NCBI GenBank assembly: GCA_964036665.1
Contig: OZ038527.1
Location: 1,364,001-1,428,000, forward strand
DNA from: Gordius sp. MW1
Lineage: Eukaryota; Nematomorpha; Gordioida; Gordea; Gordiidae
DNA length: 64,000 nt
Reading direction: 5' to 3'
The notes beneath the pieces are model-generated. The model made no database searches and was not told where the DNA came from. It saw nothing but the letters and a program-made list of their open reading frames with translations. The position numbers were made by a program, and so were the translations under genes. This document shows positions 1 through 12,700 of this stretch, in pieces. Numbering within the stretch: the stretch's first letter is position 1; each line of letters starts with the position of its first letter.

Positions 1-1644
1 GTGGCGTGGGTCATAAAAAAACATTTCAGACTCCGGTCATACTTGAACAGCTTTAACTGGAACTAAAATTGATCTAGATTGTATGCGAATGTATTGATTT
101 TCCTACTTTTTTTATCCATAATCTGATTAGTAAATTAATACCTCAGGCTTCAAGTGCTTACCTACAAAATAAAATAAATTAGCTTATCATTAAACAAAGC
201 ACCTTCCTTATTTTATCCAAGCCATTATTTGGAGCTAAGTAATCGTTTTACAAAAGGAAGTGGAAAGATAAAAATTAATTAATTCTTAAAGTCGGCTAGG
301 TTAATTTAAAAATTAATAAATATAATTTTTATTATAATTTTCTTATATAATTTATTGTGATGAGGGGCCGAAAGGGGGCAGAATTTCACTTTTGAGAAAG
401 GGGACCTTGTCTATCTCGCCCTCACTCTAAGTAATCCACTGAAAAATGGATATATATATGTACTCTTTCTTTTGGTATAAAATTGCATTCACGATTAAAA
501 AACTATAAGAACGCGCTTAGGCCGCCCCCCTCCCCTAAATAAAAAAAATTATCAATACAAAAACCCTTAAAAATTTATGTTTGGCCCCCTCTCCCCTAAT
601 TGAACTTAAACAACTTTCGTCCCCCCATCTAATCCAAAACCTGGCTATGCCCATGGCACTAAAACTAAACGGATGGCATTGATCCATGTACGAAAATCAT
701 GTTGGATTTAACAATTTTTATTGTGATCTTTATAAAAGAAGTACTCTTTTAAATCGAATGAGACGTTAAAGATCGCTTTTCCAATTTATTATAAGTTAAT
801 ATTATTAATTATAATTTATTTTCTATATTTAAATTTTGTGTTCTAAAATTTTTTAATTTATGACCCATAGTGGAAAACATATGATTTGAGCAAGTGGGGG
901 TCAAAGTAGCTCATCAGGAAAAAAAGGGGCACACTTTGTTTATTGAAAATAAATCAAGGCAAAACTATCAAACCTATTTCTAAGAAGAATTTGCACAAAG
1001 AAGGGTGTATTAATTTTAAAATAACCCTAACCCAAATCAAGAAATCAGTCCCTCATTTTTTTTAAAAAACATATCATCTCATAAAATGTCAATATACATC
1101 ATGCAATTATATCACATGTATATAAACAAAATGATACAATAAACCTTTTCATACATGATTGACTTTTATTATAAGTATGAAAAAACATCAGGATAAATAA
1201 AATATGTAATTTTATAAATATCCATAGTTGGTATTTAAAAAATATAAGTGCTAAATTATACAATAAAATCTTTCCATACATAAATGACTTTTATTATAAG
1301 TATAACATCAGGATAAGGTATTTGCTAAAACAATATGTTAAATTCTGATATACATGATGAGAAATGTTCCAATACAATCTTTATATATTCATATATTTAC
1401 TTGTTATGATTTCACTAGGACATGTTAATATAAAATATTTTGTGCTAAGACAATATGTTAAATTCTGGTGAATAATATGAGATAAGTTCCAATAAATTCT
1501 CTAAAAATTTATGTATATATTACTTGTTACAAATTCAAATTCACCATATCAAAAAACTCTGAGCAAATCTGAGCAATCATGACCAGTTTCGCTTCTATTT
1601 CTGTGCTCCTTTGACCGGTTCCCGATTTGAGCACTTGTGGTTAA
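1..1644. other. AT-rich non-coding stretch
   Basis: I see no supportable gene here. The stretch is strongly AT-rich with short homopolymer runs. It holds one decayed copy of the CATGGGCGTAGCCA element (about 511-655) and a loose duplication around 1090-1500, where phrases such as 'acaatatgttaaattctg' recur near 1331 and 1451. Small open frames on both strands have no recognisable composition or splice context. Confidence 0.6.
511..655. mobile_element. A-family short element, C-rich subtype, decayed
   Basis: The right end reads ggctatgcccatgg, matching the right terminus of the other copies. The interior has the same C-runs and 'ctaattgaacttaaac' block as the copy at 26140-26303. The left end (cgcgcttaggcc) is badly eroded and no target duplication is visible. 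Confidence 0.55.
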
Positions 1645-3483
1645 GGCCTAGGCTATGTATTCTCGATTCAGAGTGATAAATAACAAAACGTAAAACGCAT
1701 TTCTTAAACGTTCCATTCCCGAGCGCAATCATCGCGTTCGTTAATTTGTGTGTTATTGTTTACAAATTTTTTAAATTCGCCATTTTTGCTTGTTCTAATC
1801 CATATGGTAACAACAACATTTTGTGGCAATATAAAGGTATGATAAATAGATATATTAACTATTTTCCTAGATAAATAATTTTGAATTTTTAATCTTTTCA
1901 AACAAGATTTGTTCATTAATTTAACATTTTGTGGCAATAAAAAGGTATGATAAATAGGTATATTAACTATTTTCCTAGATAAATAATTTTGAATTATTTT
2001 CTTAGATCAGTTGCAAAAGAGGTGGGAAAAATACATCAACCATTCAAAGGTTCAACATATTTGTCTCATTTACTAAAACATCAATCAATAGTTGATTCAA
2101 ATACATCAACCATTCAAATGTTCAACATATTTGTCTCATTTAATAAAACATCAATAAATAGTTGTTTAACCATTGTATTTAAGAATTTATAACATATATC
2201 TAATAGGTTTTTTTAATGAGGTTGGAAACCTTATTTGTTATCCGTGTAATACAATAAACCTTGTGTTGTTGCTTATATTATTGTTGTTAGTGTTTCAACA
2301 TATTAATACTATTTGTGAGTCAGGGAGAGTTACAATTATTAATTGCTATGCAATTTATATTGATAAGAATGACCATTTAAGTATTTTATCAAATTTATAA
2401 TATGATTTTCATTAGAAATCATTAGTATAACAATTTACAATTTTGCATACATATTCTGACAAATCCTTAAATATTAGTTTGTAAAAATCTGAATACATTT
2501 ATACATATTTCATTAAGAGTTACATAATATAAGTGCTGTTTTCTTATTTTAAGAGTTAATTGGTAGTATTAGAATTCCTGTATGTTCTAAAAGTGCAAAA
2601 GCTTTGTGCATATGGTTACCAACAATTTATTAATTCTATTTTCAAAACTTATTTTTTAAATGTTATAATCTAAAAGTTACTCAAGATAGTTACCAACAAT
2701 CTTCTATTTCATTTTTTATAAAAGGCACATATAAAAATGTCAAAAGCATTTTCAATATTTTTTACCTGATGTCATAACCTAAAAGTTTCTCAAGATAGTT
2801 ACCAACAATCTTCTATTTCATTTTTTAAAAAATGCACGTATAAAAATGTCAAAAGCATTTTCAAATCTAATTTTTTTAACATGCTATCTTAAAAAATACA
2901 GTTTATTTAAATTTGAGCCAAATTCAGCAAACCATTTAGGAAATTTATTGAATCTCTAAAAAAACAACACTCAAATATGTCAGCTGCAGTTTATTATTTT
3001 TAAACAATAAGAAACAATGGTGAATCAACTATTGATTGATGTTTTAGTAAATAAGACAAATATGTTGAACATTTGAATGGTTGATGTATTTTTCCCACCT
3101 CTTTTGCAACTGATCTAAGAAAATAATTCAAAATTATTTATCTAGGAAAATAGTTAATATATCAATTTATCATACCTTTTTATTGCCACAAAATGTTGAA
3201 TAAATGAACAAATCTTGTTTGAAAAGATTAAATATTCAAAATTATTTATCTAGGAAAATAGTTAATATATCTATTTATCATACCTTTCTTTTCCCACAAA
3301 ATGTTGTTGTTACCATATGAATTAGAACAAGCAAAAATGGCGAATTTAAAAAAATGTAAACAATAACACACAAATTAACGAACGCGATGATTGCGCTCGG
3401 GAATGGAACGTTTAAGAAATGCGTTTTACGTTTTGTTATTTATCACTCTGAATCGAGAATACATAGCCTAAGCCTGTGGTTAA
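1636..3483. mobile_element. Foldback Mutator-like element with 9-bp target duplication
   Basis: The element proper is 1645-3474. It is flanked by the perfect 9-bp repeat TGTGGTTAA at 1636-1644 and 3475-3483. Its ends are inverted: the left begins GGCCTAGGCTATGTATTC and the complement of the right begins GGCTTAGGCTATGTATTC. The arms stay inverted for roughly 450 bp (1645-2098 against 3026-3474). Each arm contains tandem sub-repeats (1816-1922 and 1923-1996; 2029-2098 and 2099-2168), and the centre holds a direct duplication (2661-2753 and 2771-2864). No transposase frame is visible, so it is non-autonomous. The 9-bp duplication and long terminal inverted repeats fit the Mutator superfamily. 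The right duplication ends six bases before the DLG5 start codon. Confidence 0.85.
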
Positions 3484-3489
3484 CAAGTG

Positions 3490-3763
3490 ATGGAGTGTTT
3501 GCATAAAGATCTATTAATAAAATATAGAGAATGTTTTATAAATTCGATTGAAATTGACAAAATAAAAGAAAATTTAATATCGATTGGAATTTTAAATGAA
3601 ACTGATATAGCTTTTATCGAAAAGGAAATTTTAAATGAAACCAAAATTGAAAAACTATTAGATATTTTACCAACCAAGGGCAAGAAATCATTTAAAGAAT
3701 TTTGCAAAATACTGGAGAAAACTTATCCACAACTGCTAACTTTGATGTTTTTAGGATCATATG
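3490..3763 (+). CDS. DLG5: DLG5 exon 1: CARD domain and start codon
   Basis: This exon encodes about 91 residues with a CARD pattern: an amphipathic helix after MECLHKDLL, then GILNETDI, then KLLDILPTKG, KSFKEFC and LEKTYPQL, in the order seen in CARD adaptors and at the N-terminus of vertebrate DLG5. ATG at 3490 is chosen because the codon before it is GTG and a transposon boundary lies just upstream. The donor is GTATGT at 3764, leaving one base (G) that joins AT at 10055 to make GAT, so this exon is in phase with exon 2 across a 6.3-kb intron. Confidence 0.85.
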
Positions 3764-6700
3764 GTATGTTGCTTGTATATGATATATGATAACAAATTGA
3801 TATCTTTATTGTTAATAAATTTAATATAGGAGATTTATTTTTATTGTTAGTTTGTTAATTTATATTATGTACATCTTAAATGCTTTATTAACAACATTAA
3901 GAAAAATATATGATTGAGTGGGTGGAAAGGGAGAATATTTTGGGCCAAGGAATAAATTGATATTTTTATTGTTAATAAATTTAATAAAGTAGATTTATTT
4001 TTATTGTTAATACGTTATATATTATAATCTTGAATGCTTCATTAACAATATTAAAAAAAAAATAGATGATTGATTGGGTGGAAAGGGAGAATATTTTGGT
4101 CCAAGATCCATCCTAAGAAAAGAATTCATAAGTTAAAATAAAATTTCAGCAAAAAGAAATTAAAGTGAAAGTATAGGTAAGGTGACAGGAAAATTAATAA
4201 GTTGAAAGTATAACAATCTAAAATATGATTTTTTTTCTATGCATATTTTATCAATCCCATCTAACCACTTGTTAAAAAAATATTGACATAAAAAGATTAT
4301 TACTAAATTAATATATTTATGCATTTTATACATTTGAAATTTTATATAAAAGCTACTAATTGAACTTAAAATGCTTAGTTTTTATATTTTTATAAATTAT
4401 GTGAAGAAAATTTTAGGTAGCTTAAAAATTTATTTAATACTTATGTTTTTTTAACATTATTTTTGTGAACTTATTTTCTTTACTTGCAACTTTTTATGAT
4501 TTTTTAATTTTCAAGTGGGTTCTGAATTTAAAAATCTCAATTATTTGTTCAAAAACTTTGTTTTGTTAAGATATTTTATTTAAAGTAAATATAGAGTAAA
4601 AACAGTATACATAAAACAAATTTAACAATTAAAAATATTCTATATAAAGTAAAAACAGTATATATAAAACAATTTTCGTCGCCAATAGTGATTATTTTAG
4701 TGCGGGATTACAAAAAAAATTAAGCATAAGGCTTTAACAAGTCTAATTCCGCAACTTGTTTTGATTTCAAATGTACAACCTTTTACACTATATTTTAAAT
4801 GCAATGTTATCAAAAAGTTATAACAATTAAAAATTTTATGTATATAATTTTTGGATTTATTCTTCAAATGCTATATAATTTAGCTTTACAATCTAATTTA
4901 TGTACTAAGTTTAGCCAAATTTAGTAAACTATATGATCAATGAATTATATATTATGAAATTACACGTGTGCTCTACATAGTTTACAATTCAACCTTTATC
5001 TCTTGTATGAATGATAAATTAAATCTATCCTTTAAGATAAATTTAATCAGCATCATACTATTGTTTATCTACATTTATGTCATATACATACATAACTGTG
5101 CAATATTATTGCCTATTTTTGACAATCATTTTGCTTGATGAGAGCTGATTCACACATTTTTACCTTTATTAGACACATTTGGATTCAATATATTAATATT
5201 TTTAAATATAATGTGGATACCTCAAATGTTTGATTTACTTTAAAATTTAGATTTGAAAAATATATAAAAAGTCTTTTACAGAAGCATAAGTCCACAGCCA
5301 TTAAATAAAATTCGTAAAGTTTCCACATCAATTACTGAAAAATTACAAGTTGGACAGGACGGACAACCAAAAACGAGCCCATAAAGCAATTAATATCTGC
5401 CGCCGAAAATAAAATTTTACAACACATGGGCGTAGCCAGCATTGGAATTAGAAGGGGGGGGGGGCAATAATGTTTTAGGGAGGGGCAAAATGATCATTTT
5501 TTGAAATTTAAGCCATAATTAGATAAAAAAAAAATAAGATTTTTTGACATTTAGAGGGGGGCAGCCACCCCCTGGCTACGCCCATAAACATTAACCAATT
5601 TATGAAGTTTGACCTAGAGTTATTTAATACTACAAATTCCTCTTTTTACTAAAATTTGATTGTATAATTAGACTTTCAACGTCATTCAATTTTGTCATCA
5701 TAATTTAGATGGTGGGGATAGGTGCGAAACGATGACGTTGCAAAAAGAACCAAAGGGTAAAATTGTGGACGAATATCAAACGCTCTTACCCTATAACACG
5801 AGTAAGTATTGAGTAATGTTATAACCCTGGTCAATTTTGCAAATTTCGACCAAGCCTAGAGGTCTACTCATAGAAACAGACCAAAAAACCTTTAGTGTGT
5901 TTATATGTTTAGTCGACTAAAGCCAAAGGTGGATCAAACAAAACCTAGCCGTTTTTACAACACTAATATCGATTTAATTTTTCATTACGAATTTCAATCA
6001 ATAATTAATCAACTTTAATTAACTTTCGTTGGAAATTATAAAATAAGCTAAGGGAAAATGTGGGCCTTTGTGTGTAAACAAATATTAAATCCAATGAATT
6101 AAAGTATTTAATGCTTGGTCTAATTATATTATTTAGTTGACATTATCAACGTTAAATTGATGCAAAATTTAATTATTCATACATTGAAACTATTGGGTTG
6201 AAACGCAAAAAGATAACAAAATTTATTAATTCTATATATTAACCACATAAGTCAATCCTCAATTTTAGGCATTTTGATCATATTTTTAGATAGAATGTTG
6301 TTTGAGCTTTCATATTTTTATTCTAATTTATATTGTTTGTTATTACCCTATTTGTAATGGTAAATCATTTATTAAATCCAACTCGATTTTATATTATATC
6401 ATAGATAATTAATTACTTAAAAATGTCGCAAATTTCTATAAACAATTTACTTTTATATAATTAATTACATTTGTCATACATAGCTACAAATGAAACGCTA
6501 ATATATCACCATGCCCACCTATCAAGTCTTGGCAATACTAGTTTTGAAAAAGATTAAAATATTGCTTAATTATGACAAAAAATCTTAAGACTTTATTAAA
6601 TAACATACATACCTCATATATAATTGACCAACCTCGTGTCAGTTAGTTTTTTAGTTAAAAATAATTAAGAGATTTTTAATTATAAAATAATGGTTAGAAA

Positions 6701-9700
6701 AACAAATTTTATAAGAAGGGAAGTACTTATAAATGCCCTGAAAAGCTCTTTTTAGATTAAATAATACGTGTTTTGAAATCTTTATACATAATAAAGTATC
6801 TTAGATAAATTATGGGTTGTTATAAAATTTTATTATATTAGTTTTTATAATAAAGTTTGTTAAAATCGACGATTTTAATGAAGTATTGAATAGTTTGATC
6901 CCTAATGTTTTTTTATGACTAATCCATTAAAAATTATGTAATGCTAAGAAAAATAGAGTGTTTATTTTATTTATACTAATTTTTTTTAACGAGTATGGCA
7001 ATCTGAAATCGTTATTTAACATTGAAGCCTTTGTATAAAAGTATTTTGTCATTGGTAAAAAAAAGTAAGAAACCAAACGATTTTTTAAACTTAAAAGCAC
7101 GTACCAAATTAGATTTTCAAAATGAAGGTCAAAAAAAGTTATATTTGGTAACAATTTATAATACATTTTGAGGTAATATACATATCCTCAAAATTTCGTT
7201 TTCTATGTTTATGTCCTGTTCCTAGTTGAAAGGCAAACATTTATTATTCAAATATTAATTATTAATTAAATATGAATTTTATTTTGTGCTACTCATTTTA
7301 AATTTATATCCCATTTAAAAATGTTATATCTACTATCATCTAACATATAGATTAAACACCGAGGTGTTAAAAATTTATGTTTTCATTTCATCCTATTTCA
7401 CCTAAATCGGTGAGAAACTTTTTTTGCAACGTAGTTTAATCGTTTTTAAATTTACTTTTATTGTTTTTTCTTGTTGACTTATAGCTTAAATTAATATCTA
7501 GTATTATTTATGGTTTAATAATAGGTTGGGTAGATGGTGTAGCATTTGTTTATGAAATATCATAGCCTAAATTTAAGCTTCGCTTAACATATTTACCCTG
7601 TGGGCTTCAAAAATTTAAAGCGCCTTTCATACAATCTAAAAACTTAATAAGTCTACCACTCTACTATACTACCACCATTTTGTTAAACTTAGAAGAAGAG
7701 TAAATGACAAAAAAGCGATGAGAAAAACTAGTTTTCGTTTTTCATGAAGTTTCAAATGAGAAAATATTTTTTAAATATATATATAATTTAATATTTAGTT
7801 TAATTACATTTAACATGCAACCTGCTTTACAAATACCACGGATTAGTTGAATCATTGCTTGCTTTCATCTTTAATTTAAAGTAACATGGATTTATGGATA
7901 AGATTTAATATAAAATGATTTTATAACTTTTTATCAATCATCAAAATCACGATTTTTAGAACTATGCCACAAAATTGTGTTTGTGCCATGTAATGTTAAA
8001 ATTATTATAAGTTTACCTCAGGTTTATGGGAAATTCATGCTGATTGCATTTTAATTAGACTCTAGCTAGACAAATTGTCAATAAAATTAAATAACAAAAA
8101 ACATTTATTTTATAAAAGTCGTCTGCTCTTTTAAATACAATAAACTCCGTTTATAGTGGTTTTCTTATATTTAATTTTAAATAATTTTACAAAAGTTAAC
8201 TTGAGATTTAAAAAAAACGATTCTTAAAGGCAATTTATCTAAAAATGCCTATTATTGTATGCCTTTTTGTATATTAAATATTAAAATTATTGCATATTGA
8301 TATAGGCATTTTACATGAATTTTAGATATCTCAAGTAATTTAACTTTGCAGAAGCAATCTAAACAGACAAATGTTTTTTTTAATTTCTTTGAAGAAATTG
8401 AATTAACTAACTCTAATTCAAAATAACCTAAAATTTGCTTTTAAAATTTTATCTATCCAAATCTGATTATTTTGCTTTAAAAATTTAAGATGGTTTATGA
8501 AATTTGGCTATGGGCATCTTATGACTTTAAAACTAGTTTATGATGGTGTTTTTTGGCCCAAATCTCAGTACACATGTCTTTTTGAAATAAAATTACTCGG
8601 GAATTCCTCCAGCTTTCGTATTGTTGCCGATTTTTTTAACTTCAAAATTTTTGTTATTGAAAATCACTCTCAGGTTTGAGGTTTCTGGCGCAGCCAGGGG
8701 GTGGCGGGGAGAATCGGCTGCCCCCCTTTAAATCGAGAAATTCTTTAAAATTTATAATAATTATTGCTAAAATTTAATAAAATCATCATTTGCCCTCCCT
8801 AAATTATTGCCCCCCCCCGAATCCAATTCTGGCTACACCCATGCTTGAGGTCATGTGTTAAACCACCCCTATCGCTTTATCTAAAAATTAGGTATGTCTT
8901 GTGAATGTTTACGCTAAATTTTGGGTAGTTCATGCAGGACTTTACCGTGATTAATTTAAACAACAAGTAAAAAACATTTTATAATAAATACATACGTGTT
9001 GTTATTACCAATTTTTGAACTGCGTACCCATAGGCGTAGCCAGAATTGGGATTAGATGGGGCATTAATTATTTAAGGAGGGGCAAAATGACCACTTTTTA
9101 AATTTTTAGTCATAATTTAATAACTTTCAACAAATTTTGGATTTAAAGGGGGGGGGCAGCCGCCTCTCCCCCTCTAGGCCACGCCCATGATGATAGATAA
9201 AGAATTAAAAGTCACCAAAATTCACGGACTTCCCTCAATGGTTATCTACCCTTTCTTACCTTGTTTGTTTGGGGAAGTGCTTTTCGTTGCTATTATCATC
9301 TCATCTCATGTTTGGGGGGAAGGTAATTCGCCTTGTGGTTGTGGTACTGGTGGTGTAATTATTATTGTTATGTATTTGCGCAACGCAATAACAACCCCTC
9401 TCCCACCCCACCCTCCTCCACCTCGCTTATATACTGTTGTATTTTAATTCGGGAGAACCACCCTCTTACGCCCCCCCCCTCCGCCCCGCTCCCTTGGCTC
9501 TCCCTGAAATTTGGTTGTTACAAAGTGTGTGTCGCAACAATGGGACTGAATGACATCATAAATTTTTAATGTGTGCCATCCCGTCACGACAATTCCCTTT
9601 TCCCACACGCACGCACACCTGATCTGATAGCAGGTAGGTAGGTGTAGTAGGTATATTTTCTGCCCGTCGCGCACATCTATTCTATAAGCCGATCATCATC

Positions 9701-12700
9701 TCTAGCCTTTCCTTCGCTCCCTATACAACACTAGTCGAGTCCATAATGTTTCCAGTTCCTACCCTCTCCTTCGAGACTGAACAGCTAAATTGTCGGCCAT
9801 GATGAAATGTCATTGACCGTTCACCCCTCCCTCTCCCTCCCTCTCCATCATATACTCCTATCCCATCTTTAAATGCGGACGACGACTTTAAGTGTTTCTT
9901 TTTGAGCTAGCGAGCGCGCATCTCACTTACACCGTTTTTTCGGCAAAAAACACGATAAATGAAGACTATTTTATTGTTCGGGTTTACCTCCGCTTATAAT
10001 TCCTGAGGAACGTCAATATTTCAGATATATAATCCGTTTTGTTTGGTTTTGCAGATTCTTCCAGTTTGAAGTCATCCCTGAAAAGCGATTCTTTCGTGTT
10101 GATGGGAGACGATTCTTGTTGCAGCCACGCGAACAAAAAGTTTGCTTATCGTAGTATTCTCTACCCCGACCCCGAGGGGCCTTGTGTTTCCTCCTCACTA
10201 GGTAGCGGGGATGACCATCCCAGTAATTCGCTCCCCAACGCGATGGAGCATTGCCAACCTTATTACTCCTCCCTACTACCCAACACTCCACCACCACCCA
10301 TCCTGTCATCCATCCACAACGCCCTGAGACCGCCTTCTTTATTCCTCCTCACCCCACACGACCCCGACGAGGAACAACACGTGACCGCTTCTGAATCAGC
10401 TGTGGCCGCCACGTCTACGATCTCCGGGGTCGGGACCGTGATGAGCGCGGGCGAAAGCGGGATCGATTTGAATTACAATAGCTCATCCTCGGCTGCCGAT
10501 CTCGTCCTCTATCCACCCGCCCCTCGAGCTCCGCCCCATTCCACCTCACCCCTCACAGCTTCCACCTCACCCCCAACCGCACCTTTGGACGCTTACTACC
10601 CACCCGCCCAACAGTGCTATAGCGTGGCCAGCGTCGCCTCTTTCGCCCCCACCATCTACTCATCGGCGCTGAGCGGTAGCGTCGGGGGCAGCGGAAAAGC
10701 GGAATACTCCCTGAGCAGCGGTTCGAGCGAGTTGCTTAGCAAGATGTACGACACGGCGCTCGAGAAATACGAGCGCGCCAAGCGCGAGCACGAAGCCCTG
10801 GTTCGGGCTTGGTCCGAGCGCGAAGCGTCTCACGAGAGCGCCTTGGCTCGGGCTCGAACCGAAGCCTCGCGCGCTCGCTCCAAACTCGACGACGCGCTCG
10901 AGCAGCGCTCGACGCTACTGCGCGAAAATTTTGCGCTCAAACAGCACTGCGCCGCGCTGTCGCACCAACTCGAAGCGTCATTTCACGACGCCACCGAGGC
11001 GCGCGAACAACTACAAAAGGTAGCTGTATTGAAAATTGAAAATCTCTTTTGTTTTATTTAAGGGTTTATACAATTTAAAATAACTTTAAACCTCCATACA
11101 TAATAATCGCTTGTCTCATATCTTTGACTCTAAATCATAAAAAGTGTAGCTTAAGCAATCATTCTGGATAGTAGTGTTGTACAAACGGCTGGATTTTGTT
11201 TGGTCGACCTTTGCTTTTAGTCGATTAAACATACACAGACTAAAGGATTGACCAAAAAACCTTTCATCTGTCTATGCCACTAAAAATAGTAGACCAAAAA
11301 ACTATTGATCTATTTATGTTTAGTCAACTAAAACCGTAGGTCGACGACCAAACAAAACACAGCCGTTTTTACAACACTACTCTGTACAGAGTATTAGTTT
11401 GCCTTCGCTCTTGACCGGCTTTGTCTAATATTTATAATGAATTTTCATTATACATAACATAATTTTACTCATTATGCCATACTTATAAGATACAAAAAAT
11501 TATTGGCGATCGCAATTCTTTTTTTATAAATTAAGCATAATTTTTTGATGTCCTGTATTTAGGTGACGCAACAAAGGGACGAAGCGATAAAGGAGATGAA
11601 TCACGCGCTCGCGATGCAAATCCGAGCGGCAAAAGATTTGGAGCGTCGACTTATAGAGCGCAACGCCGCGGTTCAAGAGTACAGCTTGGTGATGGCAGAG
11701 CGCGACACCGTACACAAAGAGATGGATAAGCTGCAGGAAGACGTGGCTGACGCTAAGAAAAAAACACAAGTTGGAAAAACCCTACAATTTCATTTTTGTT
11801 ACAAGCCTTAATTATTACAGCGATTTTATTTGAAGTTAGTTCAATAGTTGTTATCTAGTAGAAATAGTCTGGTTTTGGGTATGGTTATCGCGTCAATATC
11901 GTAACACTAAGGCATTTTAGGTTTCGGTCGTCCCTGGTTTAGTCAATAAGGAGTCCTTATTTACGGGAATTAATAGAGATAATTTTTCAAATTTGTTTTA
12001 CAGCTATAAATGAAGACTTCTATAGAAAGCACAAATGCTTCAGAGTTTACACTTTTCTTTTTACGGTGTACATAGTAAGTGAGAAGGATTCATGATATAT
12101 CCATTTGGCTCCACTTTTGATTTAAAACCTGCATTAATAGCTTAGAAATTTCTGACAGATTTCCTTGATAGATCTCGACATCACTAGTGGATATAAAAAC
12201 GAAACCAAATATTAGTTTCCCATATATTTCCTCGCGCTAATTTTTATACGCATTTTACGACAGGAATTGGAAGGGGAAAATAAAGAGTTGGCCGAAGAAC
12301 TGCAATTGTATCGAAAGGAGATTGAATGTGCCCTTGCGGATCGTGATAAAGCGATCAACGAAGGCAACCACGTCAAAGATAAATACGGCGAAGTGTGTTT
12401 CAAAATATTACATATTATTTTTACGTTTTTGACATTTTTTAAAGTAGTTTGACAGCTTTTTTTAAATTTTAATTGTTTGGTAATACGTATTTTTTAAAAA
12501 ATTCGCGCTTAGTCTATCACTTTAAAGATATTATTTTGTTTTCGAATCGAAGTATAGTCCGATTTATAAAATGATTGTGAGGGAATGGGACAAAATTATT
12601 ATACTCCTCAAAGATCTTCCAACTGCAATTTTTTAAAAAAAATTCTTTCGTGTAAAACGTTGTAGAGCTATTTCAAGATGGCCGCCACTTTTTATTTCTC

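Follow-up and report, generated by a model that had tools for sequence, protein, structure and literature searches.

A MULE foldback element in the leader of one of two DLG5 first exons in Gordius sp. MW1

In the nematomorph Gordius sp. MW1, the start codon of a DLG5-like gene lies directly behind a long inverted repeat, which raises the question of how a gene interrupted at this position can still be supplied with transcripts. We analysed the locus within a stretch of 64,000 nucleotides (the window; positions 1,364,001 to 1,428,000 of contig OZ038527.1, here C1). A preliminary description of the window had proposed that a foldback element cuts the start codon off from its leader and promoter, so that transcription starts inside the element, an upstream exon is spliced over it, or the CARD form is silenced and a second promoter near 9.2-10.0 kb is used.

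The insertion and its host gene

The foldback element spans 1645-3474 (1,830 bp) in the window sequence and has long inverted repeats at both ends, in line with the class and the size of approximately 1.83 kb given to it earlier. The two TGTGGTTAA copies at its flanks are identical over all 9 bp and, as had been claimed, fix its boundaries, exactly at 1636-1644 and 3475-3483. The distance to the gene was also described correctly: the right copy ends at 3483, the ATG is at 3490, and the six bases CAAGTG (3484-3489) lie between them. The parts of the insertion are as follows.

1636..1644, no strand: left target duplication, TGTGGTTAA (from sequence; single copy at the empty site)
1645..3474, no strand: foldback element, classed as a non-autonomous MULE (from its ends, family copies and arm alignment)
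1645..2192, + strand: left arm (arm alignment)
2193..2997, no strand: loop (open-frame list, Rfam scan)
2998..3474, - strand: right arm, an inverted copy of the left arm (arm alignment)
3475..3483, no strand: right target duplication, TGTGGTTAA (from sequence)

The arms can be aligned over approximately 548 nt, with 480 matches in 519 aligned columns and 58 gap columns. Within this alignment, 455 bp are 96.9% identical. Two copies of a repeat spaced by 108 bp are present in the left arm (1815-1890 and 1923-1998); very long inverted arms and internal direct repeats, which together define foldback elements structurally, are thus both found. The longest open stretch listed within the element has 100 amino acids (1704-2006, minus strand) and the longest listed for the loop has 76 (2170-2400), and an Rfam scan of 1200-4200, which includes the loop, gave no match at the gathering score. 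The foldback is a real insertion and not a chance arrangement, since 9-bp duplications also flank other copies of its family and an element-free paralogous site has a single TGTGGTTAA (see below).

For the host gene, the two exons considered here are:

3490..3763, + strand: DLG5 exon 1, proximal copy, CARD coding (donor ATG/GTATGT; boundary inferred)
10055..11019, + strand: DLG5 exon 2, phase 1 (acceptor TTTTGCAG; boundary inferred)

The frame from the ATG at 3490, which is the first in-frame ATG because of an in-frame TAA at 3481, matches Pfam CARD (PF00619, 4e-11). Joined to exon 2, exon 1 stays in phase and yields 413 open codons, and a later exon matches PDZ (4.5e-9). DLG5 proteins have an N-terminal CARD followed by a coiled coil, PDZ, SH3 and GK domains, and we take the gene to be DLG5 from its CARD, its PDZ and a coiled coil that we liken to that of DLG5. 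Across the ten frames scanned, the SH3_2 match is weak (0.084) and a guanylate-kinase piece was not found; DLG5 is a probable assignment that is still incomplete.

An element-free copy of the leader and first exon

A genome search with the 141 bases that directly precede the insertion leads to a second locus at C1:1342985-1343126 (L089). Here TGAGCACTTGTGGTTAACAAGTGATGGAG is uninterrupted: it contains a single TGTGGTTAA and lacks the foldback, and we regard the locus as a natural empty site. A CARD exon then follows, open and with a GTATGT donor as in the proximal copy; its frame scores CARD at 1.5e-11, and its ATG (C1:1343137) precedes the proximal ATG (C1:1367490) by 24,353 bases. In the genome, the CARD exon has exactly two matches. 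Both sites fall within a tandem duplication:

C1:1326423-1344220, head-to-tail with copy 2: tandem duplication copy 1 (colinear blocks)
C1:1345002-1368578, head-to-tail with copy 1: tandem duplication copy 2, its right part being window 1..4578 (+ strand)

The copies consist of colinear blocks of 93-99% identity with unshared insertions between them, and there is no N across the 50.5 kb spanning both. On the opposite strand, both contain the same open piece with an IF-2B score (PF01008, 5.2e-15) and, beside it, a second common open piece that we read as another exon of an eIF2B-like gene. The duplication reaches window 4578 only, though window 1-12000 was compared, so that DLG5 is doubled at its 5' end only; both the first exon of DLG5 and an eIF2B-like gene lie within the duplication. 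The copies differ at 13 of 1,631 bases upstream of the insertion site and at 20 of 807 in intron 1. Between the two CARD exons there are 3 differences in 274 bases, 2 of which change an amino acid, a pattern that gives no sign of constraint on either copy. Joining the distal exon to exon 2 would need an intron of approximately 30.6 kb that crosses the eIF2B-like gene on the other strand.

The shared leader contains another, evidently older insertion, here called repeat A, that is present in the distal copy as well:

883..891, no strand: left 9-bp target duplication of repeat A, GATTTGAGC (flank comparison)
892..1623, no strand: repeat A, 732 bp, with imperfect inverted ends (genome matches)
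1624..1632, no strand: right 9-bp target duplication of repeat A, GATTTGAGC (flank comparison)

The genome search with the 141 bases upstream of the foldback gave 223 candidates, of which 40 were scored; the 38 scored matches outside the DLG5 copies all end at query positions 123-133, corresponding to window 1622-1632. One further copy (L090) has a partial duplication of 7 bases, and in the flanks of a shorter copy (L091) no target duplication was found. Repeat A predates the tandem duplication because both DLG5 copies carry it, and the leader was thus already cut before the duplication took place. For the foldback, arrival after the duplication is the simpler reading, and a precise loss from one copy would be the less simple one. 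The change counts for repeat A (3 of 510 shared, then 2 and 2, with edges placed 1-2 bases off) and those for the foldback (7 of 1,685) fit the order repeat, duplication, foldback, although these numbers are small. Together, repeat A and the foldback are two 9-bp-duplicating insertions within 27 nt before the ATG, with target sites 3 bp apart.

The separation of the start codon from its leader and promoter is thus true for only one of the two first-exon copies: it holds for the proximal exon, but the distal copy is intact and the leader had been cut by repeat A beforehand. Since the foldback struck one of two first exons, CARD-containing DLG5 need not be silenced, and with an element-free CARD exon and leader 24.35 kb upstream the silencing that had been considered is not forced.

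The element family and its transposase

The exact 34-bp end of the foldback occurs at 89 + 82 places (171) in the 211.8-Mb genome, and its 24-bp end, with up to 2 mismatches, at 202 + 198 places; controls gave 0 + 0 in both cases. The left 186 bp as genome query yielded 458 candidates, and among those scored there are 40 full-length matches (27 at 100%, the window copy included, and 13 at 99%) and 2 partial ones. On average, 25 of 30 fetched copies differ pairwise by 0.73% (one duplicate locus, two copies with another structure and two read from the other arm were dropped), a value that is biased low because copies were picked by likeness to the window copy. In the alignment of these 25 copies, which has 1,685 columns, 7 differences are private to the window copy. 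The foldback belongs to a family that is young and present in many copies. Elsewhere in the assembly, the telomere repeat TTAGGG is present at the four contig starts examined, and the 14.8-kb contig C12 is presumably mitochondrial, from CYTB and ND1 likeness. No match to the cuticle family PF00379 was found, which carries little weight because the controls of that scan gave no match either.

For 20 other copies the second flank was fetched, and an exact 9-bp duplication is present at 16 of them; L022 and L029 have a 9-bp duplication with one mismatch, L018 has inverted flanks, and in L027 the identical 9 bp are displaced four bases further on, as read from the printed flanks. An exact 9-bp duplication also flanks two of four longer relatives; of the others, one has 10 bp in common and one (L042, nested) has none. 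No target consensus beyond A+T was found in 20 duplications (the 16 from other copies and four more). A host-gene domain lies within approximately 1.5 kb at 6 of the 21 two-flank sites (the 20 other copies and the window):

window: CARD
L011: FAD
L012: SAM
L018: metallophosphatase
L032: SDE2 (below cut-off)
L037: aldo-keto reductase

Two family sites adjoin other mobile elements, of piggyBac type at L010 and an integrase (below its cut-off) at L028. We do not claim a 5'-end bias of the family, because the 20 frames of this survey (17 from the 20 other sites) were picked by eye and had no control set. Nor is the six-base position alone remarkable, since under uniform insertion approximately 0.2 copies would be expected at 10 bp or less before an ATG, a rough value that assumes 200 copies and a gene number borrowed from a bryozoan genome abstract.

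Transposase sequences are absent from the window copy and present in relatives with the same ends. On contig C7 (6516200-6527700), two inverted 4.6-kb arms that are 99.5% identical each contain the same 407-aa open frame, matching PF10551 (2.4e-16) and a ZSWIM1-3 RNaseH-like model (2.5e-30). The outer part of these arms is approximately 88% identical to the window arm, and each arm has several copies of a repeat unit of approximately 104 bp (104-108 bp); the C7 element is without a left terminus. Of 149 candidates from a genome search with the 407-aa frame, 102 were scored, and among these only the two C7 frames were full length and free of stops. At five loci, decayed transposase sequence is present 0.3-0.5 kb away from an exact 24-bp family end:

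family ends near transposase remnants: C1:8593291, C1:8610308, C2:16735412, C3:12444650, C1:4742424

Because relatives carry a transposase and the window copy has none, we class the family as MULE foldbacks and the window copy as a non-autonomous member. Two features mark it as MULE: a MULE-type DDE transposase in same-ended relatives, and a target duplication within the 8-11 bp range given for MULEs in a survey (PMC6446971), here 9 bp at the window copy and at 16 of the 20 others. Among the 102 of 149 candidates scored, a transposase-bearing direct source of the window copy was not found. The nearest transposase-bearing relative found is approximately 88% identical in the shared arm and lacks the left terminus, and any activity of it would be putative.

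Other assignments fit less well. A 9.1-kb candidate on C3 (L055) was dropped as a family relative; it contains a nested retroelement with frames that we take to be gag-pol-like. The P superfamily (Galileo) has a P-type transposase and an 8-bp target duplication, as opposed to 9 bp here, and above the cut-off only MULE and ZSWIM1-3 families were matched. Rehavkus transposases are described with a PHD finger in the same survey (PMC6446971), and no PHD finger was found by Pfam (E up to 1) in three left-arm frames and one right-arm frame of the C7 element, so that Rehavkus is improbable.

The arms that carry transposase in relatives here, at 3.6-4.6 kb, exceed the published MULE end lengths, 14-500 bp in the survey (PMC6446971) and 13-1,193 bp in arthropods (PMC13359780). 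No element with one transposase per arm came up in a targeted literature search, although this argues only weakly that none has been described. It is conceivable, if doubtful, that the foldback belongs to a structural class of MULEs, near-perfect palindromes with one transposase gene per arm, which recurs across several MULE families here; its members would hit the same few bases at the 5' ends of genes again and again, and would here have re-plumbed a duplicated DLG5 first exon.

Among known systems, Muta1 of Aedes aegypti is not known to be a foldback of the window element's size. Muta1 resembles the window element in being a MULE, in the 8-9 bp that it duplicates and in its weak target preference, but unlike the window element it is an experimentally tested system (PMC5225508). 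In yeast, 41 of 60 Muta1 insertions were in genes or at most 1 kb away, and in the 5' UTR of a yeast reporter a short Muta1 derivative leaked while a longer one blocked expression (PMC5225508). The Tm1 Mutator/Foldback family of root-knot nematodes shares composite ends of foldback type that contain internal repeats, target duplications mostly of 9 bp, a MULE transposase (Phantom-like) and an excess of non-autonomous over transposase-bearing copies (PMC3169594). Its repeats are 13-15 bp, compared to an arm repeat spacing of approximately 104-108 bp here, and one 496-aa transposase lies in a 2.6-kb element, whereas the relative here has a frame in both arms (PMC3169594). Drosophila FB4, with Pack-MULE, is similar in its long inverted arms (approximately 700 bp), 9-10-bp duplications and MULE-like classification; host and sequence differ, and the authors regard the source transposase of FB4 as unknown (PMC8277862). 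Wheat VRN1 promoter foldbacks also have 9-bp flanking repeats and are inserted before a start codon, but they measure at most 222 bp and some lie approximately 100 bp upstream (PMC3095301), versus 1.83 kb and six bases here.

Leader consequences and supply of DLG5

Between 1585, an arbitrary leader start, and 3489 there are 32 ATGs, all within the foldback; the last is at 3419, and one of the frames overlaps the CARD start. The earlier suggestion that a long inverted repeat in the leader forms a strong hairpin is supported by a predicted folding energy of approximately -690 kcal/mol for 500 + 500 arm bases with a linker, a value that has no shuffle control. An unspliced proximal leader would hold these 32 upstream ATGs and a hairpin of approximately 0.5 kb, and because of both, a transcript that reads through the foldback would probably make little CARD protein.

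Upstream of exon 2, the composition changes:

9550..10054, + strand: stretch richer in CpG ahead of exon 2, a candidate for a second promoter (composition)

GC content is 0.44 and CpG o/e 1.16 in this stretch, compared to 0.31 and 0.55 at 1400-1635. The CpG value is a hint only, because exon 2 (1.23) and the whole window (1.02) are also high; a second promoter near 9.2-10.0 kb, as proposed earlier, may be present, but the signal could also be regional composition.

Our preferred reading, to which we give a probability of roughly 0.7, is that the non-autonomous foldback, presumably mobilised in trans by a MULE transposase of the same family, integrated by cut-and-paste in front of the proximal CARD exon, one of two tandem copies, where it interrupted the leader and duplicated 9 bp. 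The insertion would persist since the distal exon, with its intact leader, intact CARD frame and same donor, could supply DLG5. Alternatively, a promoter near exon 2 may supply a CARD-less protein; DLG5 would then come from the distal first exon, the promoter before exon 2, or both, with the proximal exon yielding little CARD protein.

Splicing bears on this reading directly, as the foldback might be removed as an intron from a donor GTG/GTTAAG (1640) or a left-arm AAG/GTATGA to an acceptor at 3458-3488. In a model of 18 donors and 18 acceptors of the DLG5 gene, several donors score within or above the true DLG5 range: in the left arm, 1837 and 1945 rank 16 of 18 and 2022 is above all 18, and at the junction of duplication and element, 1640 is middling (rank 6 of 18). 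There is also a strong acceptor deeper in the right arm, at 3120 (rank 16 of 18), along with several middling ones. However, only weak acceptors follow the last upstream ATG (ranks 3, 4, 2 and 4 of 18), and those of the native leader and the joined empty site are weak as well; 3120 would keep the later upstream ATGs in the leader, a left-arm donor would keep those preceding it, and the model is built on just these 18 + 18 sites, curated by eye. Splicing over the element, as suggested before, is thus conceivable from its strong left-arm donors but weakly supported on the acceptor side, and we consider it quite improbable. Still less probable is that the foldback donates a promoter: the left arm resembles the sequence upstream of an inward-facing C7 transposase frame, the C7 frames face inward with the shared arm outside them, and transcription would thus be directed toward DLG5, but such a transcript would still contain the right arm and its upstream ATGs.

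Two further explanations question the gene copies themselves. The duplication might be two haplotypes set in series by the assembler, with the foldback polymorphic at a single DLG5 first exon. The copies diverge by 0.8-2.5%, which is within the range of heterozygous invertebrates, and several large insertions differ between them. However, the head-to-tail junction lies inside one contig with no N in the 50.5 kb, the same two eIF2B-like pieces occur in both copies, and the doubling takes in no more of DLG5 than its 5' end (the match ends at window 4578 and exon 1 has two genome matches), making this rather unlikely. Somewhat easier to entertain, but still unlikely, is that both CARD exons are relics and that DLG5 is a CARD-less protein made from a promoter at approximately 9.5-10.05 kb. 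The two successive insertions close to the ATG, the amino-acid changes at 2 of the 3 exon differences, the CpG-rich stretch and an in-frame ATG in exon 2 would all agree with this, but both frames are open with good CARD scores (4e-11 and 1.5e-11), the donors are intact and exon 2 is phase-matched.

With the foldback in the proximal of two leaders, the locus is a natural experiment: two versions of one exon and leader, only one of which carries a transposon with long inverted repeats, lie approximately 24 kb apart on one chromosome. It would allow measuring the effect of a foldback in a 5' leader on transcription, splicing and translation, and asking whether a gene is protected by its duplication when an element of this kind inserts. 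As a side lead, palindromic MULEs with a transposase per arm may bear on the origin of foldback elements.

Paired MULE transposase matches

Among 128 MULE transposase matches in the assembly, adjacent matches lying no more than 12 kb apart fall on opposite strands in 14 pairs and on the same strand in 1, with a single run of four matches on contig C4 supplying 3 of the 14 opposite-strand pairs. Three of the 14 were examined, and these are inverted repeats with 99.2-99.5% identity across 3.6-4.6 kb, with corresponding open frames present in each arm.

MULE transposase pairs lying as inverted repeats
C7:6518937-6524966, opposite strands, inverted repeat
C1:3785500-3794200 (locus L097), opposite strands, inverted repeat
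C3:21982800-21991800 (locus L098), opposite strands, inverted repeat

Foldback copies and their surroundings

One longer copy of the foldback family (L039, C2:14857232-14861943) is bounded by a perfect 9-bp duplication. Its interior is unrelated sequence that contains repeats spaced at 144 bp and a 182-aa open frame, and may possibly have been captured.

Near 1806-1808 kb on C7 (L018/L076), an inverted duplication is centred on one foldback copy, the right flank of which, when reverse-complemented, equals the left flank over 589 bp, including the element end, at 99.5% identity. On the same contig, two loci 14.4 kb apart (L015, C7:14660464; L016, C7:14646054) share a stretch of 3,186 bp at 100% identity, which takes in a foldback copy together with a tandem-repeat flank; this is a recent local duplication. 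Five 24-bp family ends lie on one strand of C2:6672393-6690571 at a spacing of about 4.54 kb, in what looks like a tandem array whose unit includes an element end.

The tandem duplication at DLG5

An eIF2B-like gene on the minus strand (C1, about 1346671-1350481; L094 and L095), one open piece of which matches PF01008 (5.2e-15), was duplicated along with DLG5 exon 1. The start of DLG5 intron 1 (window 3791-4105) holds a direct repeat of two units of approximately 160 bp, near 3791 and 3951, and this two-unit repeat is found in each copy of the tandem duplication.
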